A DNA stretch of 64,000 nucleotides from positions 399,176 through 463,175 of the forward strand of contig SAQL01000001.1 in assembly GCA_004020645.1 (NCBI GenBank). Reading direction: 5' to 3'. The notes beneath the pieces are model-generated. The model was not told where the DNA came from, made no database searches, and saw only the letters and a program-made list of their open reading frames with translations. The position numbers and the translations under genes were made by a program. Below are positions 3,785-40,238 of the stretch, piece by piece (the stretch's first letter is position 1; every line of letters begins with the position of its first letter). The DNA is from Mesorhizobium sp. Its GTDB lineage: Bacteria; Pseudomonadota; Alphaproteobacteria; Rhizobiales; Rhizobiaceae.

Positions 3785-3798
3785 TTGATGCCGGTCAA
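3785..3798. promoter_or_regulatory. FNR/FixK-type box upstream of arcDAB
   Basis: TTGATGCCGGTCAA fits TTGAT-N4-GTCAA, the classic rhizobial FixK half-site pair. It ends 62 nt upstream of the arcD ATG, a usual place for an activator site. A second, weaker match (TTGATGGGAGGCAA at 3745-3758) lies too close to the start to be preferred. Confidence 0.75.
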
Positions 3799-3995
3799 AG
3801 AGAATTTGTCCTCGCTGCATCCGAACTATTGGATTTCGCAAAGGTCCCGAGAGGTCTGGAATGTTGTGTTCATGCGTGTCGTCAGAAGACGGTCCGGCCC
3901 ACGCTGGCTCCTGGCCCCAGAACGTCTAGGCGATGCGTTGCCTCGTTCAATCAAGGTTTCGGTTTGGAGCAATCAAGCACGTTGGGCTTAGCCTT

Positions 3996-4009
3996 TTGAT
4001 CTCCATCAA
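3996..4009. promoter_or_regulatory. FNR/FixK-type box upstream of the BON-domain gene
   Basis: TTGATCTCCATCAA is a perfect inverted repeat TTGAT-N4-ATCAA, 78 nt upstream of the ATG at 4088. It faces the BON and alcohol dehydrogenase genes. Confidence 0.8.
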
Positions 4010-4087
4010 CGCGCCATCCGCCACATCTCTGCATGTTTAACATCGTCAACAGAGTGGGTGCGACCCGCTCGGAACAGAGGTGCAAGT

Positions 4088-4735
4088 ATGAACGACAATA
4101 CTTTGCGACAGAACGTCATCTTTGAGCTGGAGTTCCAGCCCAGCATCGACGCGGCCAATATCGGCGTCGCTGTCGATAACGGGGTAGTCACACTGACCGG
4201 CCATGTCTCGACCTATGCGCAGAAAGCCACGGCGGAAAAAGCGGTCCTTTGCGTCAAGGGCGTAAAAGGTGTCGCCCAAGAGATCGAAGTGCGGCCTATC
4301 GGCAGCAATGTCACGGCGGACGATGAGATCGCCAAGCGGGCTTTGCACACGATTAGCTGGAACACGGTGGTCCCCGACGGAGCGGTGCAGGTCCAAGTCC
4401 AGAATGGCTGGGTGACCCTCACCGGCAAGGTGGAATGGCAGTATCAGAAAGCCGCCGCTGCCGCTGCCATTCGGTATTTGGCGGGCGTGCTCGGCGTCTA
4501 CAACCAAATCGAGGTGAAGCCGCAAGCATCAGTGGGTGATGTGAAAAAGCGCATCGAAGATGCACTGAAACGCAACGCCGAAGTCGAGGCGCAGGCAATA
4601 AATGTCAAAGTGTCCGATGGCAGGGTTACGCTAGAAGGCAAGGTCAACAGTTGGGCCGAGCGTCGCACAACGGAACGGGCCGCCTGGGCTGTACCCGGCG
4701 TGCGCATGGTCGAAGACCTCATTACAATCGCCTGA
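4088..4735 (+). CDS. BON-domain protein, OsmY-like
   Basis: 215 aa made of three consecutive BON domains (about residues 5-73, 78-145 and 148-214), each with the pattern V-x-V-x-(N/D)-G-x-V-T-L-x-G. BON domains bind phospholipid or other surfaces in osmotic and envelope stress proteins of the OsmY class. No clear signal peptide is visible, so location is uncertain. The ATG at 4088 follows a GAGGTG ribosome site; the longer frame to 4058 lacks one. An FNR/FixK box 78 nt upstream suggests low-oxygen induction, and the alcohol dehydrogenase gene follows after 73 nt. Confidence 0.85.
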   Translation: MNDNTLRQNVIFELEFQPSIDAANIGVAVDNGVVTLTGHVSTYAQKATAEKAVLCVKGVKGVAQEIEVRPIGSNVTADDEIAKRALHTISWNTVVPDGAVQVQVQNGWVTLTGKVEWQYQKAAAAAAIRYLAGVLGVYNQIEVKPQASVGDVKKRIEDALKRNAEVEAQAINVKVSDGRVTLEGKVNSWAERRTTERAAWAVPGVRMVEDLITIA

Positions 4736-4808
4736 TACGTAGCAGCGTCAAAGGGAAGTGAATCGTCATCCGCTTTCTTTTGTTTTTGCGGAATGCATAG
4801 GAGGTGTC

Positions 4809-5792
4809 ATGAAAGCCATGGTGCTTGAAAGCATCGGCACTCCCTTGAAGCTGATCGAGAGACCCGATCCCATTCCTGGGGTGGGCGAAATCAGGTCGAA
4901 AGTCGAGGCATGCGCAATCTGTCGGACCGATCTGCATGTAGTTGATGGTGATCTCCCTCATCCAAACCTGCCGGTCATTCCAGGTCATGAAATTGTCGGC
5001 GTCATTGATTCTGTTGGTGAGGGGGTCGCGAGCTCCCGACTTGGGCGGAGAGTCGGCGTGCCTTGGCTCGGGCATACGTGTGGCCACTGCCCCTATTGCG
5101 CCGCAGGGAGTGAAAATCTCTGCGACCAGCCACTGTTCACCGGCTATACACGCGATGGCGGTTTCGCCAGCCATGTCATCGCCGACGAGCATTTCGCCTT
5201 CGACCTGGATGCCGATGCAGATGCGGTGTCGTTGGCGCCGCTGCTTTGCGCCGGTCTTATCGGTTGGCGGTGCCTGAACAAAGCCGGCGAAGGCAAGCTG
5301 CTCGCGATCTATGGCTTCGGCGCTGCCGCGCACATCATCGCCCAGATCGCTATCTGGCAGGATCGTAAGGTCTTCGCTTTCACGCGGCCTGGCGACGAGG
5401 ACGCACAGGCATTTGCGCGCTCGCTCGGCGCCACCTGGGCCGGCGGTTCGGATGAACATCCGCCCAAGCAGCTCGATGCCGCGATTATCTTCGCTCCTGT
5501 TGGTGCTTTGGTACCAAACGCGCTGCGAGCCGTGCGGAAGGGCGGCCGGGTCGTGTGCGGCGGTATTCACATGAGTGACATTCCAGCGATGCCGTATCGA
5601 TTGCTCTGGGAAGAGCGTGAATTGGTGTCAGTCGCAAACCTGACTCGCCACGATGCAGAAGAGTTCTTTCCCGTTGCGAAGATCGCGCAGGTTCGCACAC
5701 ATACAAAGGTCTATTCGTTGGAACAGGCAAACCTAGCATTGGACGACCTGCGTGCCGGCAGATTGAGTGGTGCCGCCGTCCTGGTGCCGTGA
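4809..5792 (+). CDS. Zinc-dependent alcohol dehydrogenase
   Basis: 327 aa MDR-family dehydrogenase, probably oxidising an alcohol or reducing an aldehyde with NAD(P). Catalytic zinc ligands are recognisable in ICRTD and GHE near the N terminus; the structural zinc lobe has the spaced cysteines CGHCPYC followed by ENLC; the Rossmann turn is GFGAAAH. The start at 4809 has a strong AGGAGG site. It lies behind the FNR-boxed BON gene and may be cotranscribed, which would fit a role in fermentative redox balance. The natural substrate cannot be read from the sequence. Confidence 0.87.
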   Translation: MKAMVLESIGTPLKLIERPDPIPGVGEIRSKVEACAICRTDLHVVDGDLPHPNLPVIPGHEIVGVIDSVGEGVASSRLGRRVGVPWLGHTCGHCPYCAAGSENLCDQPLFTGYTRDGGFASHVIADEHFAFDLDADADAVSLAPLLCAGLIGWRCLNKAGEGKLLAIYGFGAAAHIIAQIAIWQDRKVFAFTRPGDEDAQAFARSLGATWAGGSDEHPPKQLDAAIIFAPVGALVPNALRAVRKGGRVVCGGIHMSDIPAMPYRLLWEERELVSVANLTRHDAEEFFPVAKIAQVRTHTKVYSLEQANLALDDLRAGRLSGAAVLVP

Positions 5793-6859: not shown

Positions 6860-6873
6860 TTGATCCGCATCAA
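6860..6873. promoter_or_regulatory. FNR/FixK-type box upstream of the 128-aa gene
   Basis: TTGATCCGCATCAA is a perfect TTGAT-N4-ATCAA palindrome, 48 nt upstream of the ATG at 6811 and 23 nt after the end of the MgtC-like gene. Confidence 0.8.
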
Positions 6874-15406: not shown

Positions 15407-15420
15407 TTGATGCGCATCAA
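15407..15420. promoter_or_regulatory. FNR/FixK-type box facing the cytochrome pseudogene
   Basis: TTGATGCGCATCAA is perfectly symmetric. It lies 39-42 nt upstream of the broken cytochrome c start and 108 nt from the divergent universal stress gene, which has its own box. Confidence 0.75.
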
Positions 15421-17937: not shown

Positions 17938-17951
17938 TTGATGCGCGTCAA
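17938..17951. promoter_or_regulatory. FNR/FixK-type box upstream of a stress gene
   Basis: TTGATGCGCGTCAA matches TTGAT-N4-GTCAA and lies 55 nt upstream of the ATG at 17882. Confidence 0.75.
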
Positions 17952-18011: not shown

Positions 18012-18025
18012 TTGATCTCGATCAA
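18012..18025. promoter_or_regulatory. FNR/FixK-type box upstream of the phasin gene
   Basis: TTGATCTCGATCAA is a perfect TTGAT-N4-ATCAA palindrome, 76 nt upstream of the ATG at 18102. It is 60 nt from the box for the divergent stress gene. Confidence 0.78.
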
Positions 18026-20004: not shown

Positions 20005-20229
20005 ATGTGGAAGCCAATCTCAAGCGCTCCGTTCGGTCGTGAACTCGAACTCGCCGTCCTCGACGAGGACGGCGAACATGCGCTTGTCTTCCCTTGCTTA
20101 AAGGGGCGGGAAGGTTGGAAGGCTGCCACGACCGGCGCACGCGTTGACATCCACCCGACTCACTGGCGCGACTGGGTGCCTGATAGGGTCCCGGCAGATA
20201 ACGGCTTGTCTCTCCGTGACTCGCCTTAA
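20005..20229 (+). CDS. Small hypothetical protein
   Basis: 74 aa, no signal peptide or membrane segment, and rich in Trp and acidic residues (WKPISSAPFGRELELAVLDEDGEHA). I do not recognise the family. The ATG at 20005 follows AGGGGG; an ATG at 20002 abuts it. An FNR-like box is 38 nt upstream. Its stop overlaps the converging fixJ stop by 4 nt. A 25-bp near-perfect inverted repeat (20051-20075) lies inside the coding sequence. Confidence 0.65.
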   Translation: MWKPISSAPFGRELELAVLDEDGEHALVFPCLKGREGWKAATTGARVDIHPTHWRDWVPDRVPADNGLSLRDSP

Positions 20230-22526: not shown

Positions 22527-22540
22527 TTGACTCGCATCAA
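22527..22540. promoter_or_regulatory. FNR-type box upstream of a stress gene
   Basis: TTGACTCGCATCAA (TTGAC-N4-ATCAA), 65 nt upstream of the ATG at 22606 and 125 nt from the divergent fixL start. Confidence 0.7.
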
Positions 22541-23476: not shown

Positions 23477-23490
23477 TTGACCGAGATCAA
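23477..23490. promoter_or_regulatory. FNR-type box upstream of the DUF6455 gene
   Basis: TTGACCGAGATCAA (TTGAC-N4-ATCAA), 53 nt upstream of the ATG at 23544. Confidence 0.7.
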
Positions 23491-26559: not shown

Positions 26560-26573
26560 TTGCGCCAGCGCAA
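26560..26573. promoter_or_regulatory. NnrR-type box between nnrR and pseudoazurin
   Basis: TTGCGCCAGCGCAA is a perfect TTGCG-N4-CGCAA repeat in the divergent region, 45 nt from the nnrR start and 74 nt from the pseudoazurin ATG. Confidence 0.78.
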
Positions 26574-26647: not shown

Positions 26648-27085
26648 ATGAAACTCTCCATCCTGGCCGCCGCAATCTCCATCCTCGCGCTCGTCGGCGG
26701 CGCAAACGCGGAAGAGCACGTGGTGCAGATGCTCAACAAGGGCGAAAAAGGCGCGATGGTCTTCCAGCCGGCCTTCGTCAAGGCCGCGCCCGGCGACACC
26801 GTCAAGTTCGTACCGACCGACAAGACCCACGACGCCCAGTCAATCAAGGGCATGATTCCGGATGGCGCAGAACCGTTCAAGGGGAAAACGAACGAGGAAA
26901 TCACCGTCACGCTGACCCAGGAGGGTGTCTATGGCGTCAAATGCGCGCCTCACTACGGCATGGGCATGGTCGCGCTGATCGCGGTCGGCAAGCCGGTCAA
27001 CCTCGATACGGCCACGGCGGTCAAGCATGCCGGGAAAGCAAAGAAGGTGTTCGCGGACCTGCTCAGCCAGGTTCCGGCCAACTGA
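26648..27085 (+). CDS. Pseudoazurin
   Basis: 145 aa periplasmic blue copper protein that donates electrons to copper nitrite reductase. A signal peptide (about 1-21, cleaved after ANA) precedes the cupredoxin fold. The type 1 copper ligands are His61, Cys99, His102 and Met107, with the C-x2-H-x4-M spacing of pseudoazurin. The NnrR-type box 74 nt upstream and the nearby nirK support a role in nitrite respiration. Confidence 0.93.
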
Positions 27086-27183
27086 TCAACACCGATACAG
27101 CCGTGCCTGCCCGATGTGGGCAGTTTGGGTCGGACGGACCGAGGGCGGCGGTTCATCCGGCCCTTTCATCTTGAGACACAACT

Positions 27184-28358
27184 ATGGGTATTCCACGTCT
27201 GCGGGCCTACTCCGGGCCCGCGATTCTTTCCTACGGGTTCAGGCCCTTCTTTTTCCTCGGCGCGCTCCATGCCGGGCTCTCCGTCATGCTTTGGCTGCCG
27301 ATGTATGCAGGCGAACTCGATGCTCACAGCGCGTTTGTTCCAGTCGACTGGCATGTGCACGAGATGCTGTTCGGCTATCTGCCGGCGATCGCTACCGGGT
27401 TCCTGCTGACCGCCATCCCGAACTGGACCGGCAGGCTGCCCGTGCAAGGTCCACCATTGCTGGCACTGGTTATCCTCTGGATTGCCGGGCGCGCCGCCGT
27501 CTTCTTCTCGGCGAATATCGGCTGGGAAGCAGCCGCTGTCATCGACGTGGCTTTTCTGCTTGCGGTCACGGCTGCGGCGGCCCGCGAAATCGTCGTGGGA
27601 AGGAACTGGCGCAATCTCAAAGTGTTGCTGCCGCTGGCCGTTCTCGCCTGCGCCAACGGCGCGTTCCATGTGGAGGCGCATCTTCAAGGCACATCGGACA
27701 TCAGCCGCAGGCTCGGCATCGCCGCGGCGATCATCCTCATCTCGCTCATCGGCGGCGCATCATTCCGAGCTTCACGCGCAACTGGCTCGTCCGCGAAAAC
27801 CCGGGCAGGCTTCCAGCACCCTTCGACCGTTTTGACGTGGCATCGATAGCCATCTCGGTTGCCGCACTGGGTACATGGACGGTTATCCCGGACAGCAGCA
27901 CCTCGGGACTGCTCATGGCCGCCGCCGCAACTTGCCAGGCATGGCGTTTGTCGCGCTGGGCGGGAGAGCGCACCATACGGGATCCGCTCGTGCTTGTACT
28001 CCATGCAGCATACGCCTTTGTGCCGGTCGGTCTTGCCTTGGTCGCGGCGTCGATCTTCTTTCCCAACGCCGTGCCCGCTGCGGCGGGGTTCCACGCCCTC
28101 GGCGCCGGCGCGATCGGCTCGATGACGCTTGCTGTAATGGCCCGGGCAACGCTCGGACACACTGGGCGAGAGCTCAAGGCAGGAAGAGGAACGTCGTTTG
28201 TCTTCGCGGCCATCCTTCTGGCGGGATCATTGAGAACCCTGGGCGCCTTCGTCCCTGATGATGGAGTGATCCATCTGGCGGGCGCCGCATGGGTGGCGGC
28301 ATTTGCCGGTTTCATTCTGGTCTACGGAACCGCATTGATGAGGCCAAAGGCGCGGTGA
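27184..28358 (+). pseudogene. nnrS: NnrS-family haem-copper membrane protein, frameshifted
   Basis: The N-terminal frame (27184-27849) gives a polytopic membrane protein with FRPFFFLGALHAGLSVMLWLP and DWHVHEMLFGYLPAIATGFLLTAIPNW, the NnrS signature with its metal-binding histidines. Near 27751-27756 the sequence reads GGCGGCGC where GGCGGGCGC is expected; one missing G moves the continuation RIIPSFTRNWLVRENPG into another frame, which runs to a TGA at 28358. The full-length product would be about 390 aa. Either a recent one-base deletion or a sequence error. Confidence 0.85.
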
Positions 28359-28415: not shown

Positions 28416-29279
28416 TCAGATGCCGAGGTACCCGAGGATCAGCTTCCTCCACCCCGGTCGGTCCCGCACCAACCTGAATCCCAGATTGTCGGGAGGCGTT
28501 CCAACGGCACAGCCCCCGCTTTTGCCGTCGCTGACGAAGTTCGACATATAGGTCCTGTGAAATCCTTCAACGACATGGACGCCGCAATTGTCGAGGGAAT
28601 TCGCAACCCCAGTTCCATCCGCCGCCAGTGTTGCGCGGACAAAGCATGTCGATGTCCACTCCCAGACGTTGCCGGAAAGATCGGCGAGGCCACGGGAGTT
28701 CACGCCAAAGGTGCCTCGGCTCCTCGGCAAGGGATCCGGGCTGCGATCGAGTTGGGCCTCGGCCTTGTAGCGGGCAAGCCAACGCTTGGCGGGGTTGTTG
28801 GCGTCGGCTTGGGGCCCCTCAAATCCGCCTCTGAAACGCTCTGCTGCCGCAAAGGCCCATTCCTCGTCTGTAGGCAGCCGCCAGTAATCGCCGGTCGCTT
28901 GAGAATACCACCGGGCATAGGCGCTGGCGTCGAGATAACTCACTCCGGTCACCGGCGCATTGGGCGGGATCTCACGTGTCTCCTGTGGCGACTGGCAGGC
29001 ACCGGCCTTCACACAGTCTGCATAGTCGGCCACGCTGACCTGATAGGTCATGATTTCGATGGGCTTGTTGAACCGTCGCTTGAGGCGGGGATTGGCTTGC
29101 GGATGTTCGCCCCGCAGGAACTCGCCCGGCAGGGAATAGGTGATCGAACCGGGAGGCAAGGTGACCGTGATGGTGACAGGGTGGAGTCGATGTCCACTCC
29201 AGCTGACGGCGGACAAGCCTATCGGCACCGTTGCGGCCGCGATGGCGACCGAGGCAACCTTCAGGAAGGAAAGCGGCAT
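28416..29279 (-). CDS. nirV: NirV, formylglycine-generating-enzyme-like protein
   Basis: 287 aa with an N-terminal hydrophobic export or anchor segment (about 5-25) and an SUMF1/FGE-sulfatase domain: PVTGVSYLDASAYARWYSQATGDYWRLPTDEEWAFAAAERF, then LADLSGNVWEWTSTCF and LGFRLVRDRP. NirV accompanies nirK in many denitrifiers; its biochemical role is unsettled. It follows nirK after 53 nt, and a strong hairpin lies between them. Confidence 0.87.
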   Translation of the reverse strand: MPLSFLKVASVAIAAATVPIGLSAVSWSGHRLHPVTITVTLPPGSITYSLPGEFLRGEHPQANPRLKRRFNKPIEIMTYQVSVADYADCVKAGACQSPQETREIPPNAPVTGVSYLDASAYARWYSQATGDYWRLPTDEEWAFAAAERFRGGFEGPQADANNPAKRWLARYKAEAQLDRSPDPLPRSRGTFGVNSRGLADLSGNVWEWTSTCFVRATLAADGTGVANSLDNCGVHVVEGFHRTYMSNFVSDGKSGGCAVGTPPDNLGFRLVRDRPGWRKLILGYLGI

Positions 29280-29292
29280 GGCTTTTTGTCCA

Positions 29293-29320
29293 TACCCGGA
29301 CAGCGAGTGCTGTCCGGGTA
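29293..29320 (-). other. 12-bp-stem hairpin between nirK and nirV
   Basis: Arms TACCCGGACAGC (29293-29304) and GCTGTCCGGGTA (29309-29320) pair perfectly around a 4-nt loop. On the nirK-nirV transcript no U run follows, so it is not a standard terminator; it could limit read-through or protect the 3' end of nirK mRNA. Confidence 0.65.
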
Positions 29321-29332
29321 ATTGCGGTGTCG

Positions 29333-30439
29333 TCAGTTTGTGGCGATGGCTTTAGGAGCCTCGACCTGCGTCATCAGGTCGTCATTCCACTCGCCTTCGA
29401 CCATGAAATGAGCCGTAGCTCCGAGTTCCACAGCCTCGATCAGATTGTGGTTCACGTAGGCGTAGACCCCCGGCTGCAGGAAGGTGTAGAGCGCCGCGCC
29501 CGCCGATCCGCCGCGAATGAACCAGGTTTCCAGATCCTTGGCCGGCGTGTTGGCAAATTTGCCCTCTTCCCAGACGTAATCGCCGTGACCGCCAATCAGG
29601 TGCGGGCGCGTATCGCGGTTGGCTTGCGAATGGACGATCAATACCGTTTCGCCAACATTCGCCTTCATCGCGTTGTCGCCGGTCAGTGATCCGACCTTGC
29701 CGTTGAACACCACATGTGTCGGGATCAATCCGCGCATCACTTTCATCATGTCGTCGTAACCGTCGCCGGCCGTTTCATAGCTCTTGAAGTTGCCGTTCTC
29801 GTCACGCGGGATATAGAAGTCGTTTTCGCCGATATAGAAGATCCTGTCGTATTTGACCGGCTTTCCCTTGTCGTCCTTCAGACCATCTCGCGGCAGGACC
29901 ATGATCGCGCCGCTCATGCCGGATACGACATGCCAGGGGATCATCGAGCCGCCGGGCGCGCAGTGATAAACGAACGTTCCCGAGCGGGTAGCCTTGAAAC
30001 GCAGGGTCACCTGCTCGCCAGGATTGACCAGCGTGAGTTCGCCGCCGCCCAGCGCCCCGGTTGCGGCATGGAAATCGATGTTGTGGGCGAGCGTGTTGGT
30101 GTCCGGATTGATGAGCGTCAGTTCGACGTAGTCGTCCTGGTGCACAACCATCAGCGGGCCGGGAACAGAGCCGTTGTAGGTCATGGCATTGAGCGTCGTG
30201 CCGTCGGCATCGATGACAACAGGCTTCTCCTCGATCGTCATGGTGAATTCGACGATCTTCGGGCCGCCCTTGGCGACCTGATCGTGCGGATGGACGAACG
30301 GCGGTGCCACGAGCTTGACCTTCTCGCGGGCAAGTGCCCCGATGTCTGCCGGGGCGAACGTTGCGGAAAATGCCGGCATCGCCGCCACGGCGGCAGCGCC
30401 GATGGCTGCTCCGAAGAGGGCTTCGCGTCGCGTGAACAT
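29333..30439 (-). CDS. nirK: Copper-containing nitrite reductase
   Basis: 368 aa periplasmic enzyme reducing nitrite to NO. A twin-arginine signal ([10 protein letters not shown]) leads the protein. Two cupredoxin domains carry the type 1 and type 2 copper ligands: [14 protein letters not shown], the [19 protein letters not shown] segment, and [14 protein letters not shown] near the C terminus. An NnrR-type box lies 65 nt upstream. It pairs with nirV and the pseudoazurin gene. No NO reductase genes are visible in the window, so how NO is removed is not shown here. Confidence 0.95.
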
Positions 30440-30504: not shown

Positions 30505-30518
30505 TTGCGTTGGCGCAA
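30505..30518. promoter_or_regulatory. NnrR-type box upstream of nirK
   Basis: TTGCGTTGGCGCAA is a perfect TTGCG-N4-CGCAA repeat, 65 nt upstream of the nirK ATG. Confidence 0.78.
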
Positions 30519-30669: not shown

Positions 30670-30816
30670 CTAGCTTTCGTCCCGATCGATCAGGATCCGC
30701 TCGGCAGCTCCGTCGAGATCCTCGTATTGACCGCTCCTCAAAGCCCACAAGAAGCCGGACAGACCTAGCGCGCCGAGAAAAAGAGCTACGGGTATGAGAT
30801 AGACAAGCGTCGTCAT
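30670..30816 (-). CDS. ccoS: Cbb3 oxidase maturation protein CcoS
   Basis: 48 aa single-pass membrane protein: MTTLVYLIPVALFLGALG, then GFLWALRSGQYEDLDGAAERIL, the standard CcoS/FixS pattern with GQYEDLDG after the helix. Its ATG overlaps the fixI stop as ATGA. It is the last gene of fixGHIS and is needed for copper insertion into the oxidase. Confidence 0.9.
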   Translation of the reverse strand: MTTLVYLIPVALFLGALGLSGFLWALRSGQYEDLDGAAERILIDRDES

Positions 30817-33095
30817 GAGGATCGTGCCAATGCGCCGGCAGTGGAACGTTTGCCGCGCGTACCAACCGTCTCGGGTGAGCTCGCGGCAAAGCCTTGCAGC
30901 CTCAGCGCATTGCCAATGACAAGCAGTGACGAAGCCGACATCGCGATTGCCGCGATCAGCGGCGTGACGTGCCCCAGAATGGCGATCGGCACGGCGATGG
31001 TGTTATAGACGATTGCTATGGCGATGTTTTGCCGGATCAGTCGTCCGGCCTTTCGCGAGATGTCGAGGGCAAGGGGTACTGCCGAAAGGCTTTCGCGCAG
31101 GAACACGAAATCCGCCGCTTTGCGGCCGACATCGGCCGCCGTGGCTGGAGCGATCGAGACGTGTGCCGCGCCCAGCGCAGGGGTGTCGTTGAGGCCGTCG
31201 CCAACCATCAGCACCTTGTGGCCGTCTTTCGCCAGCGTTTCGATATACACGACCTTGCCCGAAGGGAGCAGCGCCGGAACAAAGTGATGGATGCCCAACG
31301 TCGCCGCGACCTCGCCGCAAGCAGCTGCGGTATCGCCCGACAGCATTTCCACGGGAACCCGGGCATTGTTCAATTGCTCGACGGCCGCTCTGGCGTCTGA
31401 ACGCAGCGCGTCCTCGAAGACAAAGGACGCGACAATGATCCCATCTTTGGTCAGAACCGTTCCGCCGTATCCGCTTTCGCCGGCGGTTCGGGCCTTCCAC
31501 CCGGCCCAGCCGCGCCGGCCAAGCCGCCAGGTGCTTCCCATGGCGGTCGCTTCGATCCCGAAACCAGGGTGCTCGCTGACGGACTCGAGCTTCGGCTGAG
31601 CAGCAAAGCCCGCAGCGCCGGCTATGGCCATTGAGAATGGATGGCGGGAATGCACGGCCATGTCGCCTGCGATGGCCAGCATGGCCGGATCGATGGACGA
31701 CGCGTTGACGAGCCGGGGCTGTCCGAGCGTAAGCGTTCCTGTCTTGTCGAACACCGCCGTGTCGATCGCCGCCAGACGCTCCATGGCCGAACCATCCTTG
31801 ACCATGACGCCGCTTTCGAACAGACGCCGCGCAGCGACCACCTGCACGATGGGCACGGCGAGACCGAGCGCACACGGGCAGGTGATGATGAGAACGGCGA
31901 TGGCGATCGTTACTGCCTGGTGCCAATCGCCGGTCGCCGCCATCCAGCCAAGGAACGTAACCAAGGCGGTCAGATGGACCACTGGAGCATAGAGCGCTGA
32001 AACGCGGTCGGCGATCCTGCGATAATGCGCGCGACCGCCCTCGGCGGCTTCCATCAGCCGGACCATCTCGGCCAGGAAGGAATCCTTTGCGGCGGCTGTT
32101 GCTTCGATGATCAGCGGGCCTGTGAGATTGAGCGTGCCGGCCTGCACGGTTTCGCCTGATGACACGGTTCTGGGTGTGCTTTCACCGGAAACCAGTGAAC
32201 AGTCGAGATCGGAAGAGCCTTGAATGATCTTGCCGTCGACGGGAATCCTTTCGCCGGCGGTGACCAGCAGCTGCAAGCCGGGTTCGATCTCCTCAACCGG
32301 CAGGTAGTCGCGCGAACCATCCTCGCGCAGCACCATGGCGCCCCGCGCCGCCAGCCGTGACAGGCCGTTCACGGCGGTCCGGGCACGCTCGCGCATCACG
32401 TGATCCAGCGTGCGGCCGATCAACAGGAAGAACAGCAGCGACACCGACGCATCGAAATAGGCGTGGTCGCCATGGTTGATGGTCTCGTAGAGGCTCATTG
32501 CGTAGGCGAGCGAAACGCCAACCGCAATCGGCACGTCCATGTTCATGCGCCCGTGACGCAACGCATTCCATGCCGATCGGAAATAGATTCCGCCGGCGAA
32601 GGCGAGCGCCGGGATAGCGATCAGCGCCGAGACCCAATGGAACAGGTCACGCGTCGCGCCTTCCGCGCCCGACCAGACCGAGACGGAAAGCAGCATGATA
32701 TTGCCCGCAGCAAAGCCGGCGACCGCGACGGCCCGGATCAGTTCCGAAAGCGTCTTGTCTTTTTCATGAATCTCCGGATCGAAAAGATGCGCCGGGTAGC
32801 CCAGCAGCTCTAGTGCAGCGACGATGGGAGGAGCCTCGTTCCCACGCCACTGGACCGAGACCCGTTTGGTCGAAAGGTTGACACGAGCGCGCTCGACGCG
32901 ATCGAGCTTTCCGAGAGCCGTCTCGATCGCCTGGATGCAGGCCGCGCAGTGAACCGTCGGCACCGACAGATCGGTCTGGCGAAGGTCATCGTCAAGCGAG
33001 CGGCTTGCCAACCTGATCTCCTGGCTCGATGGCAAGCTGGATGTCGCTCCGCCCAGATCCAGCGCCATTTCAGCGCCCGGCGCACAGCAGCTCAT
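30813..33095 (-). CDS. ccoI: Copper-translocating P-type ATPase FixI/CcoI
   Basis: 760 aa. An N-terminal HMA domain (about 42-110) has VHCAACI; the transmembrane metal motif is TCPCALGL; DKTGTLT and GDGLNDTPAL are intact. FixI/CcoI exports copper for assembly of the CuB centre of the cbb3 oxidase. Start and stop codons overlap fixH and ccoS by ATGA, so translation is coupled across the operon. Confidence 0.94.
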   Translation of the reverse strand: MSCCAPGAEMALDLGGATSSLPSSQEIRLASRSLDDDLRQTDLSVPTVHCAACIQAIETALGKLDRVERARVNLSTKRVSVQWRGNEAPPIVAALELLGYPAHLFDPEIHEKDKTLSELIRAVAVAGFAAGNIMLLSVSVWSGAEGATRDLFHWVSALIAIPALAFAGGIYFRSAWNALRHGRMNMDVPIAVGVSLAYAMSLYETINHGDHAYFDASVSLLFFLLIGRTLDHVMRERARTAVNGLSRLAARGAMVLREDGSRDYLPVEEIEPGLQLLVTAGERIPVDGKIIQGSSDLDCSLVSGESTPRTVSSGETVQAGTLNLTGPLIIEATAAAKDSFLAEMVRLMEAAEGGRAHYRRIADRVSALYAPVVHLTALVTFLGWMAATGDWHQAVTIAIAVLIITCPCALGLAVPIVQVVAARRLFESGVMVKDGSAMERLAAIDTAVFDKTGTLTLGQPRLVNASSIDPAMLAIAGDMAVHSRHPFSMAIAGAAGFAAQPKLESVSEHPGFGIEATAMGSTWRLGRRGWAGWKARTAGESGYGGTVLTKDGIIVASFVFEDALRSDARAAVEQLNNARVPVEMLSGDTAAACGEVAATLGIHHFVPALLPSGKVVYIETLAKDGHKVLMVGDGLNDTPALGAAHVSIAPATAADVGRKAADFVFLRESLSAVPLALDISRKAGRLIRQNIAIAIVYNTIAVPIAILGHVTPLIAAIAMSASSLLVIGNALRLQGFAASSPETVGTRGKRSTAGALARSS

Positions 33096-33589
33096 TGCAG
33101 TGCTCCGTGAGAAATCATGATCCGGCGAACGTCGCGATAGGATTCTGCCAGACCGGCATCCGTGTCGACTTCGACGATCCAGACGCCATCCCTTGGTGTG
33201 TGCCGCGCGGCAAATTCCTGGCCCGAGGCAACGGCGAGAGTGACGGCTTTGTCCGCGCCCTCGTAGGCAGGATGACGAAACAGCACCTTGACGCTACGCA
33301 AGGGAACCGGCTTGCCGGCGGCATCGTTGAGACTGTAGCGGACTTCGCCCCAAGAGATCGTCAATTTGCCGGTCCAGCCGAGTGCCGCCTGCGCACGCCC
33401 TTCCTCGGCCTTTCGGTTGAATTGCTGGCTGGCCACATAGGAGTTTTCGACGACGAGGCCGGTCCAGCTCGTGCTGGCGAGCGTTGCCATGGTCAGATTC
33501 ACACCAACGATCACGCCGAAAAAACTGAGTATGATGAGCAACATATGCCTGCCGGTGAATTCGCGGTTTTTTTGCGTATGGGCGCTCAT
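33092..33589 (-). CDS. ccoH: FixH/CcoH, cbb3 oxidase assembly protein
   Basis: 165 aa with one N-terminal membrane helix (HMLLIILSFFGVIVGVNLTMA) followed by a FixH domain with SWTGLVVENSYVASQQFN. It stabilises the oxidase during assembly. The ATG at 33589 overlaps the fixG stop as ATGA; the longer frame to 34000 runs into fixG and is rejected. Confidence 0.92.
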   Translation of the reverse strand: MSAHTQKNREFTGRHMLLIILSFFGVIVGVNLTMATLASTSWTGLVVENSYVASQQFNRKAEEGRAQAALGWTGKLTISWGEVRYSLNDAAGKPVPLRSVKVLFRHPAYEGADKAVTLAVASGQEFAARHTPRDGVWIVEVDTDAGLAESYRDVRRIMISHGALQ

Positions 33590-35145
33590 CTGACGATCTC
33601 CGGGGCGTTGAAGGTGGCGGTGTATTCGTCCGTTTCGAAACTCGCCTTGTCCTCGACGCGGAATTTGAATGTTTGTGTCGCGCTTCCGACCTGGTCCACC
33701 GGCTGGCGCACGAAAACCTTCAGCATCTTCAGGCGGTCGGGTTCGACCGCGACGGCGAAGGACCGGTCTGCGGGAAGGTCGATACCGACGACGCTCATTT
33801 CGGCTCCCCGCAGGCCCTGCATCGTGACAACGATCGTCCTTGGCTCGGGGATCATATTGAGCAGCTTGACGGTGTAGCCGTTGCGGATCGAACCGTCGGA
33901 CAGCGTGACGAATTGCGGGTTGCGGTCGTGCAGAACGTTGACTTCGAGCCGGTCGCGCGTCAGCAGCGAATAGAGCAGGGCGAGACCGACTGCCGACCAA
34001 GCTCCCATGTAGACGAAGGTCCGTGGCCTGAAGATCTTGCGGATATGGAAATGGGCCAACTTATCGGAGAAAGCGCCGCTGCCGGTTCGGACCAGCGAAG
34101 GGTTCACCGAGCAAGAGCCGCCAGCAGTCGCCACCGCCATGTTGGCGTTGTAATCGGACAGCGTCGCATAAGAGATCAGCCCGGGCTCCTTGCCGAGCTT
34201 GGCCATGACGCCGTCGCAGGCATCGATGCACAGCGCGCAAGTGATGCATTCGAGCTGCTGACGGTCGCGAATGTCGATTCCCATCGGGCAGACCGCGACG
34301 CAGGCATTGCAATCGACGCAGTCTCCGACGAGCTGCCCCGCGGCCTGGACCTTCTTGGCGTGCCGCGACCGAGGTTCGCCACGCCAGTCATTGTAGGTCA
34401 CGGTGAGCGAATTTTCGTCGAGCATGGCCGCCTGGATGCGCGGCCACGGGCACATATAAGTGCAGACCTGCTCGCGCATCATCCCGCCGAATGTGTAGGT
34501 GGTAGCCGTCAGCACGCCGATGGTGATGTAGGCGACCGGCGCAGCGGTGCCAGCGAAGACCTCGCCAATCAGCGATGGCGCATCGGCGAAATAGAAGATC
34601 CAGGCGCCGCCGGTCGCTGCCGCTATGGCCAGCCAGATCGCGTGTTTCGATACACGCAGCACAAGCTTGCGCGCGGTCCACGGTCCGGCGTCGAGTTTCA
34701 TGCGGGCATTGCGATCTCCCTCGATCGCGCGCTCCACAACCAGAAACAGATCGACCCATACGGTCTGCGGACAGGTATAGCCGCACCAGGCTCTGCCAAC
34801 TCTGGATGTGATTAGGAAAAGGCCGATGCCGGCCATAACGAGAAGGCCGGCGACATAGAAGAATTCCTGCGGCCAAATCTCGATGAAAAAGAAATAGAAG
34901 CGGCGGTTGGCAAGATCGATCAGCACGGCCTGATCGGGAGCAAACGGACCTCGATCCCAGCGCAGCCAGGGCGTCAGGTAGTAGATGCCCAGCGTGATCG
35001 CCATCACCAGCCACTTGAAGCGGCGAAAGCTGCCCGAGGCGCGCTTGGGAAATATCTTCTTGCGCGGTGCATACAGCGGCTGGCGGACCTTGGCGGAGTT
35101 GACCGCCTCGGCTTCGAGCCGTTCTATCTGCGTATTGTCCAGCAC
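33586..35145 (-). CDS. ccoG: FixG/CcoG, membrane ferredoxin-like assembly protein
   Basis: 519 aa. About five membrane helices are followed by a cytoplasmic double [4Fe-4S] ferredoxin region (CVDCNACVAVCP and CITCALCIDACD) and a C-terminal periplasmic immunoglobulin-like domain. CGYTCPQTVW near residue 115 is typical of the family. CcoG is implicated in reducing Cu(II) for cbb3 assembly. GTG start at 35145 after GGAG. A FixK-type box lies 116 nt upstream, giving fixGHIS its own promoter apart from fixNOQP. Confidence 0.94.
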   Translation of the reverse strand: MLDNTQIERLEAEAVNSAKVRQPLYAPRKKIFPKRASGSFRRFKWLVMAITLGIYYLTPWLRWDRGPFAPDQAVLIDLANRRFYFFFIEIWPQEFFYVAGLLVMAGIGLFLITSRVGRAWCGYTCPQTVWVDLFLVVERAIEGDRNARMKLDAGPWTARKLVLRVSKHAIWLAIAAATGGAWIFYFADAPSLIGEVFAGTAAPVAYITIGVLTATTYTFGGMMREQVCTYMCPWPRIQAAMLDENSLTVTYNDWRGEPRSRHAKKVQAAGQLVGDCVDCNACVAVCPMGIDIRDRQQLECITCALCIDACDGVMAKLGKEPGLISYATLSDYNANMAVATAGGSCSVNPSLVRTGSGAFSDKLAHFHIRKIFRPRTFVYMGAWSAVGLALLYSLLTRDRLEVNVLHDRNPQFVTLSDGSIRNGYTVKLLNMIPEPRTIVVTMQGLRGAEMSVVGIDLPADRSFAVAVEPDRLKMLKVFVRQPVDQVGSATQTFKFRVEDKASFETDEYTATFNAPEIVR

Positions 35146-35261: not shown

Positions 35262-35275
35262 TTGATGCAAGTCAA
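35262..35275. promoter_or_regulatory. FixK-type box upstream of fixGHIS
   Basis: TTGATGCAAGTCAA (TTGAT-N4-GTCAA) in the 215-bp gap between fixP and fixG, 116 nt upstream of the fixG GTG. Confidence 0.75.
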
Positions 35276-35360: not shown

Positions 35361-36224
35361 CTATTCCCCACCACCAAGCGAATGGATGTAGACCGCTAGC
35401 TCCTTGACCTTGGTCTCGCCAAGACGCTCAACCCAGGCCGGCATCACGCCGTGCTTGGGTGCGCGGACCTGCGCGGCGATTGCCGTTTCGTTCGACCCGT
35501 AGAGCCAGATCGCATCGGTCAGATCGGGCGCGCCGAGCTCTTTGTTGCCCTTTGCATTGTCGCCATGGCAGGCTACGCAGTTTTCGGCGAAGACCTTGGC
35601 GCCCGGCTCGACCAGTTTTGCATCTTGAACCGGGCCGGACAGGCTGGCGACATAGGTACTGACCTGTGCGACCTGATCGCGGGTGATGATCTCGCCAAAA
35701 GCCGGCATTTCCGATAGGCGTGTACCCGGGACGGATGCGAAGCGTATGCCGTGCGTGATCGTTTGCTGGATCTGCTCGGCCGTGCCGCCCCACAACCAGT
35801 CATCGTCATTGAGGTTGGGAAAGCCCTTGGACCCCTGGGCATCGGAAGCGTGGCACTGCACGCAATTGACCTTGTACGCAGCGCTGCCTGCGGCAACAGC
35901 GAATTCGCGCAACGCGTCGTCGCCGGCAATCTCCGAGACGGTTTTCGATTGTATCGCTGCGGCATATTTCGCCTTGGCGATTTCGGCCGCAGCAAGCTCG
36001 TTGTTGACGTCGTCGCGGCTCGAATAGCCAAGCACGCCCTTGGTCGCCGAGGTCAGCATCGGCCATGCCGGATAGGCGATGGTGTAGCCGATCGCCCAGA
36101 CGATGGTGATGTAGAACGTTATGACCCACCAGCGCGGAAGTGGGTTGTTGAGCTCCCTGATACCATCCCACTCGTGGCCGGTGGTGGAGATGCCCGACAC
36201 TTCGTCGATATGTTCATCGCTCAT
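35361..36224 (-). CDS. ccoP: Cbb3 oxidase dihaem subunit FixP/CcoP
   Basis: 287 aa: a membrane helix at about 30-55 (WWVITFYITIVWAIGYTIAYPAWP), then two cytochrome c domains with CVQCH and CVACH haem sites and methionine ligands in LSEMPAFG and GVMPAW. It passes electrons to CcoO/CcoN. It starts 2 nt after the ccoQ stop. Confidence 0.95.
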   Translation of the reverse strand: MSDEHIDEVSGISTTGHEWDGIRELNNPLPRWWVITFYITIVWAIGYTIAYPAWPMLTSATKGVLGYSSRDDVNNELAAAEIAKAKYAAAIQSKTVSEIAGDDALREFAVAAGSAAYKVNCVQCHASDAQGSKGFPNLNDDDWLWGGTAEQIQQTITHGIRFASVPGTRLSEMPAFGEIITRDQVAQVSTYVASLSGPVQDAKLVEPGAKVFAENCVACHGDNAKGNKELGAPDLTDAIWLYGSNETAIAAQVRAPKHGVMPAWVERLGETKVKELAVYIHSLGGGE

Positions 36225-36226
36225 GA

Positions 36227-36376
36227 TCAGTCGTCCTTCAGAGGAATGCGGGCGGCTTCATCGGCCTGCTTGCCACTCCCGGGACGGAATGCGAAGGCGA
36301 CCGTTCCGACGAAGAAAAGTGCCATGGCGAGCAGGGCCCAACTGTCGGCGAACTCTCTCATCCAGTGGTAATCCAT
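36227..36376 (-). CDS. ccoQ: Cbb3 oxidase small subunit FixQ/CcoQ
   Basis: 49 aa: one membrane helix (SWALLAMALFFVGTVAFAF) followed by a basic-acidic tail ending IPLKDD. ATG at 36376 with AGGAGAAGG upstream. It lies between ccoO (11-nt gap) and ccoP, the normal fixNOQP order. Confidence 0.92.
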   Translation of the reverse strand: MDYHWMREFADSWALLAMALFFVGTVAFAFRPGSGKQADEAARIPLKDD

Positions 36377-36387
36377 GGTCCTTCTCC

Positions 36388-37119
36388 TCAGCGGTAGCCA
36401 GCGGCTTCGTCGTAGGTCTTGAAATCGACCAGCGTGCCGAGCATCTGCAGATAAGCGACCAGGGCATCCATCTCGGTCACCTGTTGCGGATTGCCGTCGA
36501 AGTCACCGAGCTTGGCCTTCGGATAGCGGCCTTCCAGGTCGGATGTGTCGGCATTGGGATCGGCCTGCGCCATAATGTCATCTCTGGCGTGAGCGATCAT
36601 GTCATCGGAGTAGGGGACACCGACGCGCCTGTTTGCGATAAGGTGCGTCGAGAAGTCCTTCACCTCGATCGCGGTATCCTTCAGGAAGGCATAGCTCGGC
36701 ATGATCGATTCCGGCACCACCGAACGCGGCTCGACAAGATGCTGAACGTGCCACTCGTTCGAGTAGCGATCTCCGACCCTGGCGAGGTCCGGCCCGGTGC
36801 GCTTCGATCCCCACTGGAACGGGTGATCGTACATCGACTCGGCTGCCAGGCTGTAGTGACCATAGCGCTCGACCTCGTCACGGAACGGCCTGATCATCTG
36901 GCTGTGACAGAGGTAGCAGCCCTCACGCACATAGATGTTGCGTCCGGCGAGTTCGAGCGGCGAATAGGGCCGCATGCCCTCGACCTTCTCGATCGTGTTG
37001 TCGAGATAGAAGAGCGGTGCGATTTCGACGATGCCACCGATCGTCACCACCAGGAGGGAACCAACGAGAAGAAGCGTGGCGTTCTTCTCGATGATCGCGT
37101 GTTTGTCCATCAAGCCCAT
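36388..37119 (-). CDS. ccoO: Cbb3 oxidase monohaem subunit FixO/CcoO
   Basis: 243 aa with an N-terminal membrane anchor ([22 protein letters not shown]) and a single haem c motif CYLCH in [20 protein letters not shown] at 37119 with AGGAG upstream. It follows ccoN after 11 nt. Confidence 0.95.
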
Positions 37120-37130
37120 TTTCTGGCTCC

Positions 37131-38741
37131 TTATTGTGCGGGCTGAAGGGCGGGGATGGAGGCTGGCATCGGCTCCTCCTCGCGTTGGTAGCCGAGGATG
37201 GTCATGGTGATGTTCCAGGTCATGATGACAGCACCGGCGAGATACATCGCGCCACCCACGGCGCGCATGACGTAGTAGGGATGCATGGCGGCCACGGTCT
37301 CGGCGAACGAGTAGACCAGGAAGCCTTGCTTGTCGTACTCGCGCCACATCAGGCCCTGCATGATGCCGGAAACCCACATCACCGCGGCGTAGACGACGAT
37401 CCCGAGGGTCGCCAGCCAGAAGTGCCAGGTAACGAGCCGCAGAGAATAGAGCTGTTCACGGTTCCACAGCTTCGGCACCATGTAATAGATCGCGCCGAAC
37501 GAGATCATGCCTACCCAGCCGAGCGCGCCGGAATGGACATGCCCGATGGTCCAGTCGGTGTAGTGCGACAGCGAATTGACCGCCTTAATCGACATCATCG
37601 GACCTTCGAAGGTCGACATGCCGTAGAAGGCAATGGCCATCACCATCATGCGGATGATCGGATCGGTGCGCAGCTTGTCCCAGGCGCCGGACAGCGTCAT
37701 CAGGCCGTTGATCATGCCTCCCCAGGAGGGCATCCAAAGCATGATCGAAAACACCATGCCGAGCGTTTGCGCCCAGTCGGGCAGGGCGGTGTAGTGCAGG
37801 TGATGCGGCCCGGCCCAGATGTAGAGAAAGATGATCGCCCAGAAGTGGATGATCGACAGCCGGTAGGAATAGACTGGCCTGTTCGCCTGCTTGGGCACGA
37901 AATAATACATCATGCCAAGGAAGCCGGCTGTGAGGAAGAAGCCGACGGCATTGTGGCCGTACCACCATTGCGTCAAGGCGTCCTGGACGCCGGAGAAGGC
38001 GGAGTAGCTCTTGGAGCCCAGGAGAGACGCCGGCATCGACAGATTGTTGATCAGGTGCAGCATCGCGATGGTCACGATGAAGGACAGATAGAACCAGTTG
38101 GCGACGTAGATATGCGGTTCCTTGCGCTTCAGGATGGTGCCGAGGAACAGGACGAGGTAGGCGACCCAGACGATGGTCAGCCATATGTCCACATACCATT
38201 CGGGCTCGGCGTATTCGCGGCTCTCGGTGATGCCAAGCAGGTAGCCGGTCGCGGCCATGACAATGAAGAGCTGATAACCCCAGAACACGAACCAGGCGAG
38301 ATTGCCGCCGAACAGCCGGGCGCGGCTGGTGCGCTGCACGACATACATGGACGTGCAGATGAGCGCGTTGCCGCCGAAGGCAAAAACGACGCCGGATGTG
38401 TGCAATGACCGCAGGCGGCCGAAGTTGAACCAGGGCTCGATGTTGAGATCCGGATAGGCAAGCTGCAGCGCGATGACCACGCCGACAAGCATGCCGACAA
38501 CACCCCAGAACATGGTGGCGATGGCGCCGTAGCGGATTGGCCCATCCATGTAGGCAGAAGGATCGACCGATGCTGCTGGCACAAAGCTGGTGTTGCGCAG
38601 AAGGACGACGACAAAGCCAAGCAGCACGAAGAACAGCACCCACATGTGCTGACGAAACGGCTCGTCCACGCCGAAGCCGGCTGCCACCAGCGCCAGAAAA
38701 GCGAAAAGGCCCAAAGTGACGATTTCTGTGCCGAACTTCAT
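37131..38741 (-). CDS. ccoN: Cbb3 oxidase catalytic subunit FixN/CcoN
   Basis: 536 aa, 12 or more membrane helices; the haem-copper core is visible in [56 protein letters not shown] and [16 protein letters not shown], supplying the histidine ligands of low-spin haem b, high-spin haem b and CuB. It reduces oxygen with high affinity. A FixK-type box 80 nt upstream (38822) is shared with the divergent hemerythrin gene. Confidence 0.96.
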
Positions 38742-38821: not shown

Positions 38822-38835
38822 TTGATCCAAATCAA
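38822..38835. promoter_or_regulatory. FixK/FNR-type box between fixN and the hemerythrin gene
   Basis: TTGATCCAAATCAA (TTGAT-N4-ATCAA), 80 nt upstream of fixN and 57 nt upstream of the divergent hemerythrin TTG start. Confidence 0.78.
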
Positions 38836-38892
38836 AGCTGCATGGTTTTGGATTGGGCAGCGTTGGTTTTGCGAACGAGTGGGAGGCGGCCA

Positions 38893-39414
38893 TTGAACGA
38901 AGAGAAAGAGCGGGGATCGTCGCTGTTCGAAGTGCGCCGCGAGAATTCGATGCTAGCTGGCCGATCCAGCAGAGAGGCAATCCCAAGCGCAGTGATGACG
39001 CGCGCGCACAGGGAAAAACTGCAGCTCTGTGATGCTCTGGAGAAAATCGCGGACGCTTTGCCGAATGTCGATCGCCTGAAGTGCCTTGGCATAGCCAACG
39101 CAATCGTTCCGTTGTTGCGCAATATTCATCAATATGAAGAAACGATCATCTTTCCCGCCTATGAGGCCGCTACAGGCGGCAGCAACAACATTGCCTCAAC
39201 CCGGCGATTGCGCGCCGAACACGTCGAAGACGAATGCTTTGCCGGGGAGGTGACTGAAATCCTGCTGGCGATCGGCCATGGCGAGAGAGTCGAGAATGCC
39301 GAGGCGGTCGGCTTCATGCTGCGTGGCTTCTTCGAAAGCATGCGCCGTCACATCGCATTTGAACGCGAGCATGTCTTGCCGGCGATCGGGATCATCGACC
39401 AAGGCGCAATCTAA
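38893..39414 (+). CDS. Hemerythrin/HHE-domain protein
   Basis: 173 aa. A helical bundle with the iron-ligand pattern: TRAHREKL, HQYEETIIFPAY, LRAEHVEDE and RHIAFEREHVLPAI. Such proteins bind oxygen or handle NO and iron-sulfur repair. The TTG at 38893 is chosen for its GGGAGG site; an ATG at 38950 is possible. Its stop overlaps the converging fnrN stop by 4 nt. The FixK-type box 57 nt upstream makes it a partner of fixNOQP at low oxygen. Confidence 0.82.
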   Translation: MNEEKERGSSLFEVRRENSMLAGRSSREAIPSAVMTRAHREKLQLCDALEKIADALPNVDRLKCLGIANAIVPLLRNIHQYEETIIFPAYEAATGGSNNIASTRRLRAEHVEDECFAGEVTEILLAIGHGERVENAEAVGFMLRGFFESMRRHIAFEREHVLPAIGIIDQGAI

Positions 39415-40142
39415 GCGCCGGAGCGTCGCTCCAGTCGGCTTAGGCTGTCGATAGTCACATGCCGGTTGTTCTCGATCCGGATCACGCCGTCCGTTCTTAG
39501 CCTGGTCAGCTGGCGGCTCACCGTCTCGATCGTCAGCCCAAGAAAGTCGGCGATGTCGGCGCGTGTCAGCGGCAGGTCGAAGGTCGCCGATCTTGCGGTG
39601 GGGTTGACCGTGGGATCGATATTCCTGGCGATCATCAGCAAGAAGCTTGCCACCTTTTCCGAAGCGGTCTTGCGCCCCAGCGTCAGCATCCAGTCGCGTG
39701 CTTCGTCGAGCTCGTTCAGCGTCTGCTTGAGCAGGCGATCCTCGAGTTCCGGCGATTCCTTCATCATCCGTTCGATGGCGGCCTTCGGAAACGAACACAG
39801 GGAAACGGCGGTTGCGGCTTCCGCGTTGATCGCGCTTTCCACCTTGAACGGCCGGCCCAGAAAGTCGGGCGCAAACTGGAGGCCGACGATCTGCTGGCGA
39901 CCGTCGGAAAGGCTCTTTGTCAGCTTGACCACACCCGAAAGCACATTCGAATAGCTGTCGACGGTCTCGGCGTCGCCGATCAGTTCGATCCCGGGCTCAA
40001 CCCTGTGTTTTGACGAGGTCTTGGCGAGTGCGACCAACTGGTCGGGATCGAGCGCACCACAGACTCCGCGATGCCGTGCCTCGCAAGACTGGCAAAGTAC
40101 TGGAATGCCGGCACTGTGAACGTCCTCCCGCACTGTCATCAT
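39411..40142 (-). CDS. fnrN: FNR-type oxygen-sensing regulator (FnrN/FixK-like)
   Basis: 243 aa. Three N-terminal cysteines (Cys17, Cys20, Cys28 in CQSCEARHRGVC) and a central Cys116 supply the four ligands of an oxygen-labile [4Fe-4S] cluster. The C-terminal helix-turn-helix is LTRADIADFLGLTIETVSRQLTRL with the E-x2-S-R recognition pattern that reads TTGAT half sites. Start at 40142 is preferred; longer starts up to 40238 would run into the FNR box. The box at 40225 suggests autoregulation together with divergent hemN. Confidence 0.9.
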   Translation of the reverse strand: MMTVREDVHSAGIPVLCQSCEARHRGVCGALDPDQLVALAKTSSKHRVEPGIELIGDAETVDSYSNVLSGVVKLTKSLSDGRQQIVGLQFAPDFLGRPFKVESAINAEAATAVSLCSFPKAAIERMMKESPELEDRLLKQTLNELDEARDWMLTLGRKTASEKVASFLLMIARNIDPTVNPTARSATFDLPLTRADIADFLGLTIETVSRQLTRLRTDGVIRIENNRHVTIDSLSRLERRSGA

Positions 40143-40224
40143 AATCGTCCCGACGGATCCAAGGTGCCCATAAGATAGCATCGGCGGCAGAAAATCTGTT
40201 GCGGCAGTTTGTCCGCGGAGGGCC

Positions 40225-40238
40225 TTGACCGAAATCAA
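40225..40238. promoter_or_regulatory. FNR-type box between fnrN and hemN
   Basis: TTGACCGAAATCAA (TTGAC-N4-ATCAA), 57 nt upstream of the hemN ATG at 40296 and 82 nt upstream of fnrN. Confidence 0.75.

Follow-up and report, generated by a model that had tools for sequence, protein, structure and literature searches.

The window analysed here is a stretch of 64,000 nucleotides from a Mesorhizobium draft genome (C87:399176-463175; contig C87 measures 562 kb and the source assembly 7.66 Mb in 241 contigs). It contains low-oxygen and denitrification genes preceded by palindromic boxes of the FNR family, and this text concerns these boxes and the regulator FnrN, of which a paralogous copy in the same genome differs at residue 204 and in the spelling of its operators. 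Besides the genes collected in Table 1, Pfam matches were obtained for arginine deiminase genes and for BON, flavodoxin-fold, MgtC/DUF4010, thioredoxin, P-type ATPase and acetate-CoA ligase/GNAT proteins, and further matches comprise APH/AAA, three Usp genes, phasin, Rrf2, DUF1858, hemerythrin, fixP, fixO and fixN. The cluster continues for about 38 kb to the left of the window, where two FixK-like genes and more boxes are found, and is therefore larger than the approximately 36 kb assigned to it in an earlier sequence-only reading. We propose that the boxes are the operators of an island of about 80 kb, of which the window represents the right half. That this is a low-oxygen/denitrification island, as the same reading had suggested, is well supported by its gene content, by a box density far above that of the rest of the genome and by the conservation of boxes at orthologous promoters, and the island itself looks like an ordinary member of the known low-oxygen gene clusters.

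Table 1. Boxes and genes of the island, in window coordinates
Feature	Position	Strand	Context and basis
FnrN/FixK-type box TTGATGCCGGTCAA	3785..3798		upstream of arcD (arcD-arcA-argF, minus strand); kept in pB2-1-1
FnrN/FixK-type box TTGATCTCCATCAA	3996..4009		upstream of BON-domain gene 4058; no relative aligned
FnrN/FixK-type box	6860..6873		precedes 6425-6811 (without Pfam match) and flavodoxin-fold gene; kept in pB2-1-1
Hybrid box TTGATTCAACGCAA	10577..10590		between P-type ATPase and acetate-CoA ligase/GNAT gene; hybrid also in pB2-1-1
FnrN/FixK-type box, perfect palindrome	15407..15420		between APH/AAA gene and Usp gene; kept in pB2-1-1
Hybrid box TTGATTCAGCGCAA	15442..15455		upstream of Usp gene; identical in pB2-1-1
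FnrN/FixK-type box	17938..17951		5' end of Usp-like ORF; not alignable
FnrN/FixK-type box	18012..18025		near phasin gene; not alignable
Hybrid box TTGATCTGGCGCAA	18953..18966		upstream of short-chain dehydrogenase ORF; not alignable
Imperfect box ATGATTCAGATCAA	19953..19966		one mismatch; spelling also in M. ciceri plasmids
FixJ-type response regulator and PAS histidine kinase (FixL-like)	20226..22401	-	Pfam; relatives annotated fixJ / PAS kinase
FnrN/FixK-type box	22527..22540		between PAS kinase and Usp genes; kept in 3 records
FnrN/FixK-type box	23477..23490		upstream of DUF6455 gene; kept in 3 records
NnrR-type box TTGCGAAAGCGCAA	25523..25536		upstream of DUF1858 gene; identical in 2 M. 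ciceri plasmids
NnrR-like Crp/Fnr regulator	25813..26514	-	recognition helix TTLHTVSR
NnrR-type box	26560..26573		separates nnrR-like gene from pseudoazurin; same sequence in 2 M. ciceri plasmids
Pseudoazurin-type copper protein and nnrS (split frame)	26648..28358	+	Pfam; pB2-1-1 annotated pseudoazurin, NnrS
SUMF1-type (nirV-like) gene and nirK	28416..30439	-	Pfam; nirK annotated in relatives
NnrR-type box	30505..30518		upstream of nirK; kept in 3 records
fixI-type ATPase, fixH, fixG	30813..35145	-	fixI-type/fixG by Pfam; fixH from relatives' annotation
FnrN/FixK-type box	35262..35275		upstream of fixG; TTGA...TCAA at fixG in 34/34 examinable Ile-type loci
fixNOQP (cbb3 oxidase)	35361..38741	-	Pfam; fixQ from relatives' annotation
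FnrN/FixK-type box	38822..38835		in front of fixN; Asn-type relatives have C and G as outer bases
fnrN, Ile204 type	39411..40139	-	Pfam and alignment
FnrN-type box	40225..40238		common to fnrN and hemN
hemN	40296..41645	+	Radical_SAM; start (ATG) from relatives' annotation

Eighteen palindromic boxes had been listed from the sequence, and 17 of the 18 coordinates correspond to exact TTG-N8-CAA sites, while the one at 19953 carries a single mismatch, in a half-site spelling that recurs in two M. ciceri plasmids. Their assignment to non-coding DNA was nearly right, in that 14 of the 17 strict island sites fall outside crude open reading frame (ORF) calls, but the box at 17938 stands at the start of a called ORF; the box of fixG is placed 117 nt from the called fixG start. 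Likewise, the reported lack of boxes in the right-hand 24 kb holds for the strict classes, but not for hybrid sites, one of which (TTGCGCGAAATCAA, 42124-42137), missing from the list, is found upstream of an ion-channel ORF (41658-42089), at a distance of about 35 nt.

In the whole window TTG-N8-CAA occurs 33 times, against 11.2 in 100 dinucleotide shuffles (standard deviation 3.7, largest value 28). The strict form TTGAYN4RTCAA has 43 sites in the 7.66 Mb of the genome, compared with 7 for the reversed-pattern control, and 11 of them are located in the interval of the sequence-only reading, where 0.15 would be expected from the rate elsewhere (72-fold); strict-box density is thus about 70 times that of the rest of the genome and not equal to it. 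A segment of 81 kb (C87:360000-441000) holds 17 of the 43 sites against 0.28 expected (61-fold), and the remaining 481 kb of C87 hold 2. As 6 of these 17 sites lie to the left of the window, the cluster had been seen in part. Because the reversed-pattern control is imperfect, the spellings ATGAY..RTCAT and GTGAY..RTCAC were added as controls, and each is found once inside the island. The possibility that the boxes are chance matches draws on the loose form TTGMN-N4-NKCAA, whose 508 matches in the genome versus 273 for the reversed control make any single loose match weak evidence; however, the strict form is locally enriched 60-70-fold and the boxes are conserved, and on the strength of the genome-wide counts, the control spellings and the promoter conservation we reject a chance origin of the strict boxes as extremely improbable.

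Conservation was assessed by locating the window positions in nine segments taken from seven records. Fourteen of the 18 listed positions align in at least one relative, and the exact boxes among them are all kept as TTGN8CAA somewhere (13/13); positions 3996, 17938, 18012 and 18953 could not be aligned and stand outside these counts. In plasmid pB2-1-1 (Mesorhizobium sp. B2-1-1, NZ_CP083955) all 11 alignable boxes of the list are kept, versus 2 of the 11 other alignable TTGN8CAA matches. This plasmid shares most of the gene set, arranged as two blocks, but it differs from the window in the nos, ba3-oxidase and other genes situated between the blocks, none of which was seen in that place here; shorter parts of the gene set are present on M. 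ciceri and other Mesorhizobium plasmids.

The listed boxes belong to two classes and their hybrids. Those at 25523, 26560 and 30505 read TTGCG-N4-CGCAA and the others TTGAY..RTCAA, apart from the imperfect 19953 and the TTGAY..CGCAA boxes at 10577, 15442 and 18953, the first two of which are hybrid in pB2-1-1 as well. Together with a further one at C87:363136, these hybrids join an FNR-type left half-site to an NnrR-type half-site. TTGcg-N4-cgCAA has been described as the NnrR motif (PMC1274295), and in the island it is found at three conserved sites upstream of denitrification genes, as in an NnrR regulon; genome-wide, TTGCG-N4-CGCAA has 19 sites against 12 for the reversed control, with 3 here versus 0.08 expected. 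The likeness to the alphaproteobacterial NnrR denitrification regulon (PMC1274295) extends to both the motif and the nirK-type targets, and the difference is that the NnrR-type boxes are here interleaved with FnrN-type boxes in one island, which is otherwise ordinary. The single regulon of the sequence-only reading is therefore too simple, because the two box classes fit two island-encoded regulators, FnrN/FixK and NnrR: the TTGAY-N4-RTCAA sites are most likely bound by the island FnrN and the two FixK-like proteins to the left, and the three TTGCG-N4-CGCAA sites by the NnrR-like protein. Bradyrhizobium FixK2 is an example of control dominated by FixLJ-FixK, and the island boxes might serve mainly such a cascade, with FnrN in a minor role, an arrangement compatible with the explanation favored below and in line with the FixLJ-like genes of the window, the LGLTIETVSR helix of the two FixK-like proteins and a strict box 100 nt upstream of one island fixK. 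Nevertheless, we consider it rather unlikely, since the island fnrN has a box at its own promoter and FnrN of R. leguminosarum is critical in symbiosis even though FnrN and FixK share anaeroboxes and both bind them in that species (PMC7888657).

The genome of the window harbors a second FnrN-hemN-fixNOQP module, on contig C47, which combines Asn204 in FnrN with CTGA...TCAG operators, whereas the module of C87 combines Ile204 with TTGA; no CTGAYN4RTCAG site is found on C87. In C47:15000-20600 (L200), VirB-type transfer genes, identified by eye, directly adjoin the Asn-type FnrN/fixNOQP module. On four other plasmids the fixN box is CTGATCCATGTCAG (window orientation), and three aligned FnrN proteins of this CTGA plasmid group read LTNETVSR or TTNETVSR, compared with LTIETVSR in the window, whose closest FnrN is that of a Mesorhizobium isolate (99% identity). 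All of the best 80 of 235 relatives in named genomes were typed at residue 204, giving 37 Ile, 41 Asn and 2 Phe. Where the boxes are intact, Ile is accompanied by TTGA...TCAA, that is T at position 1 and A at position 14, both at fnrN (36/36) and at fixN (35/35); L078 has no fnrN box, and L078 and L105 yielded no fixN. Asn, on the other hand, is accompanied by C1 at fnrN in 40/40 loci, with G14 in 29 and A14 in 11, and by C1/G14 at fixN in 39/39 (L080 was left out for lack of an fnrN box, L083 of fixN and L106 of a fixN box). Canonical TTGAY-N4-RTCAA at fnrN and fixN thus goes with Ile204 FnrN and not with Asn204 FnrN, which nevertheless remains an FnrN by its cysteines and sequence. In fact, Cys16, 19, 27 and 115 are invariant in six aligned FnrN of both types, consistent with a putative [4Fe-4S] cluster, and ETVSR of the FNR-type recognition helix (E..SR) is present in 85/85 rows. 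In both Phe-type loci the fnrN box is TTGATTTCGGTCAA and the fixN box TTGACCTGGATCAT, and these loci possibly represent a third operator code. They belong to M. waimense and M. sophorae (L087, L091), with the FnrN helix LALRFETVSR, T1 boxes and a fixN box ending in CAT; at fixG, no box was detected in either by the pattern used.

In alignments of 200-nt promoters, that of fixN (315 columns; 36 Ile and 39 Asn rows, window included) separates the types perfectly at box positions 1 and 14 only, the next column reaching 0.92, and in that of fnrN box position 1 is the best column (37/38 versus 41/41, a count that includes L078 and L080, both without an intact box there). On the protein side, 204 is the sole column of the FnrN alignment with a single letter per type (39 I, 44 N). 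A sample of the genus gave the same picture: 61 genomes were searched with the Asn-type protein, 54 matched, and the best 30 loci, one per genome, comprise 24 Asn (including the genome of the window) and 4 Ser, whose fnrN boxes all begin with C1, plus 2 Ile that show T1 instead. Of the 29 loci new to the analysis, 28 have a fixN box and all agree (22 of 23 Asn and the 4 Ser with C1/G14, the 2 Ile with T1/A14; L269 has none). These loci are best matches to the Asn-type protein, so the sample is biased to Asn, and the named and unnamed sets may overlap. The four Ser loci (L262-L265) have Ser at FnrN 204 and keep CTGA operators. Outside the genus, FnrN of Pararhizobium, Shinella (2), R. etli and Paracoccus has Ile in four cases and Val in one, with TTGA boxes upstream, and consequently the Ile/TTGA state is probably ancestral.

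Both types occur in the same cell. Ile and Asn types are found together in at least 14 genomes; when the named loci are grouped by record title, 12 genomes hold Ile with Asn and one Ile with Phe, and in M. amorphae CCNWGS0123 the Ile type is on the chromosome and the Asn type on plasmid pM0123d.

When the FnrN of the window is aligned with FixK2 (PDB 4i2o), Ile204 stands opposite the Leu of LGLTLETVSR. By alignment, residue 204 takes the position of R180 in CRP and L195 in FixK2, where the residue reads the outer base of each half-site. In FNR the equivalent residue is presumably V208, and the swapping of V208 takes part in the swapping of specificity between CRP and FNR. FixK2 L195 makes a hydrophobic contact with a thymine (PMC9104804), and across the CRP/FNR family residue 180 correlates with the third base of the motif (PMC1274295). 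Based on these correspondences, we hypothesize that residue 204 of FnrN does the same, Ile, Val or Phe possibly favoring T through its methyl group and Asn or Ser possibly favoring C, and that a change from Ile to Asn, together with T1 to C1 in the operators, altered the operator code of one paralog. The two modules, and with them FixK, whose helix resembles that of the Ile type, would then be at least partly insulated in the same cell. To this explanation as a whole, island operators plus paralogous FnrN modules separated by a specificity switch, in which box density, promoter conservation, the pairing of residue and operator and co-residence are observed while binding, insulation and physiology are inferred, we assign a probability of roughly 0.64.

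Several observations weigh against a complete switch. As a third promoter for the switch fixG failed the test, its boxes being mostly lost and not switched: among 38 Asn loci, 25 have no box by the pattern used, 8 have TTGACCTGCAGCAA, 2 an unchanged TTGA, 2 a half CTGA and 1 ATGA, compared with TTGA...TCAA in all 34 Ile loci examined (three loci of each type were dropped because no usable fixG start was found). Eleven of the 40 intact Asn-type fnrN boxes are half-switched, with C on one side only; in L109, of the Ile type, the TTGA box is accompanied by an additional CTGACAGCAATCAT, and spellings are mixed at an unlinked hemN. A CTGA site found before nifZ was considered as an operator and dropped, since it lies at the end of fdxN and is not conserved. 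CTGAYN4RTCAG has 39 matches in the genome versus 7 for the reversed control; since many fall inside called ORFs, this excess is not taken as the size of a regulon, and the sites we count as putative operators are those of fnrN/hemN and fixN on C47 and, less surely, that of hemN on C170. FnrL of R. sphaeroides has chromatin immunoprecipitation peaks that include half-CTGA sites (PMC2908626), and given how poorly this result, fixG, the half-switched fnrN boxes, hemN and nifZ fit a full regulon switch, the insulation may be partial. Residue 204 alone may not fix the base either, because a T motif goes with Ser or Pro at the corresponding position of HcpR (PMC1274295) and the main contacts named for E. 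coli FNR are E209, S212 and R213, not residue 208 (PMC4505428). In addition, the two types have no letter in common at FnrN positions 17, 34 and 197 or in a C-terminal extension, position 197, in the helix-turn-helix, being Ala/Gly versus Ser, and Tsoy et al. 2016, who used one Rhizobiales profile, report no group-specific changes in DNA-contacting residues (PMC4999443). Finally, the tree requires one change between Ile and Asn, one to Ser and one to Phe, so the locus counts are not independent and the events are few; Asn and Ser as one clade reach a p-AU of 0.81 (approximately unbiased test), and Phe may have originated inside the Asn clade.

The same data bear on a simpler alternative, namely that there is one shared oxygen regulon in which both FnrN proteins bind both spellings, CTGA being a tolerated spelling that drift fixed a single time, in the ancestor of the Asn-type modules, and that was passed on with its neighbors. 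The single origin of Asn, the FnrL peaks, the half-switched fnrN boxes and the loss of most fixG boxes all agree with it. Drift, however, would have to account for outer bases at two promoters, including both half-sites of fixN, that changed jointly and remained fixed from then on, with no other column of the fixN promoter separating the types perfectly, and for a change in precisely the residue known to face that base (PMC9104804, PMC1274295); we regard this alternative as unlikely.

Within the specificity switch that we prefer, a more detailed picture, to which we would give somewhat less than an even chance, is that Mesorhizobium holds two mutually insulated FnrN regulons: one of Ile204 and TTGA, which FixK would also use, on a free-living low-oxygen/denitrification island, and one of Asn204 and CTGA, which would run a cbb3 oxidase and hemN of its own outside the control of FixLJ-FixK. 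The latter may have a symbiotic function, since four Asn-type plasmids typed by reading are also among the nif-bearing plasmids (25 of 160 records listed). Seven of the eight Mesorhizobium records appear in that list, those four and AR02, AR10 and CP050295, which were outside the typing by reading; in the draft genome of the window nifH is on C162, neither on C47 nor on C87. Two insulated circuits could help to explain why M. loti R7A mutants in fixK and fixJ still fix nitrogen (PMC3538637).

Other features of the region were noted. The nnrS frame is split at 27184-28358, the first ORF covering profile positions 2-179 of 371 and the remainder lying in another frame. The segment 17055-19906 has short or overlapping ORFs (Usp-like, phasin, partial short-chain dehydrogenase), which suggests local decay because its counterpart in pB2-1-1 has hemA and a cytochrome c gene. 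To the right of the island, at 49238-61178, are found TrbI, TrbG-like, VirB8/TrbF, TrbL, a TraG-type ATPase, TrbB-like and a type IV secretion system coupling protein, and on pB2-1-1 too the island has a Trb cluster as neighbor, there on the left side. With regard to a possible integrative conjugative element, C87 also has an integrase match at C87:501500 and two tRNA genes. Two long ORFs without Pfam match occupy 44702-47294, a stretch of lower GC (about 56-57%), and a reverse-transcriptase-like ORF, recognized by eye, lies at C87:473209-474594 near a ParB-like ORF.

Relative to the Rhizobiales FnrN/FixK regulons already described (PMC4999443), the regulator families and the kind of anaerobox are the same, and what differs is one FnrN group with Asn at the contact position and a different operator. 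Rodionov et al. 2005 reported CRP/FNR co-evolution at the same residue (180) and the same base (PMC1274295), but between deep families and as Arg-G versus other-T, whereas here Ile-T is set against Asn-C in close paralogs of one genome. A literature search, resting mainly on abstract openings and selected passages, found no report of the Asn/CTGA pair, nor of the island gene set in Mesorhizobium; PMC10100741 deals with something other than this family. The island looks ordinary, and the interest lies in the paired change of FnrN residue and operator between paralogous modules of one cell. The literature has asked why rhizobia maintain oxygen regulators in several copies ('Why So Redundant?', PMC4999443), for which Tsoy et al. 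2016 offer backup or differences in affinity. If our interpretation is true, a change of one residue and one base pair separating paralogs would answer it concretely and would clearly exemplify how regulators become insulated after duplication; regulon prediction from one TTGA profile could then overlook one of the circuits of Mesorhizobium.

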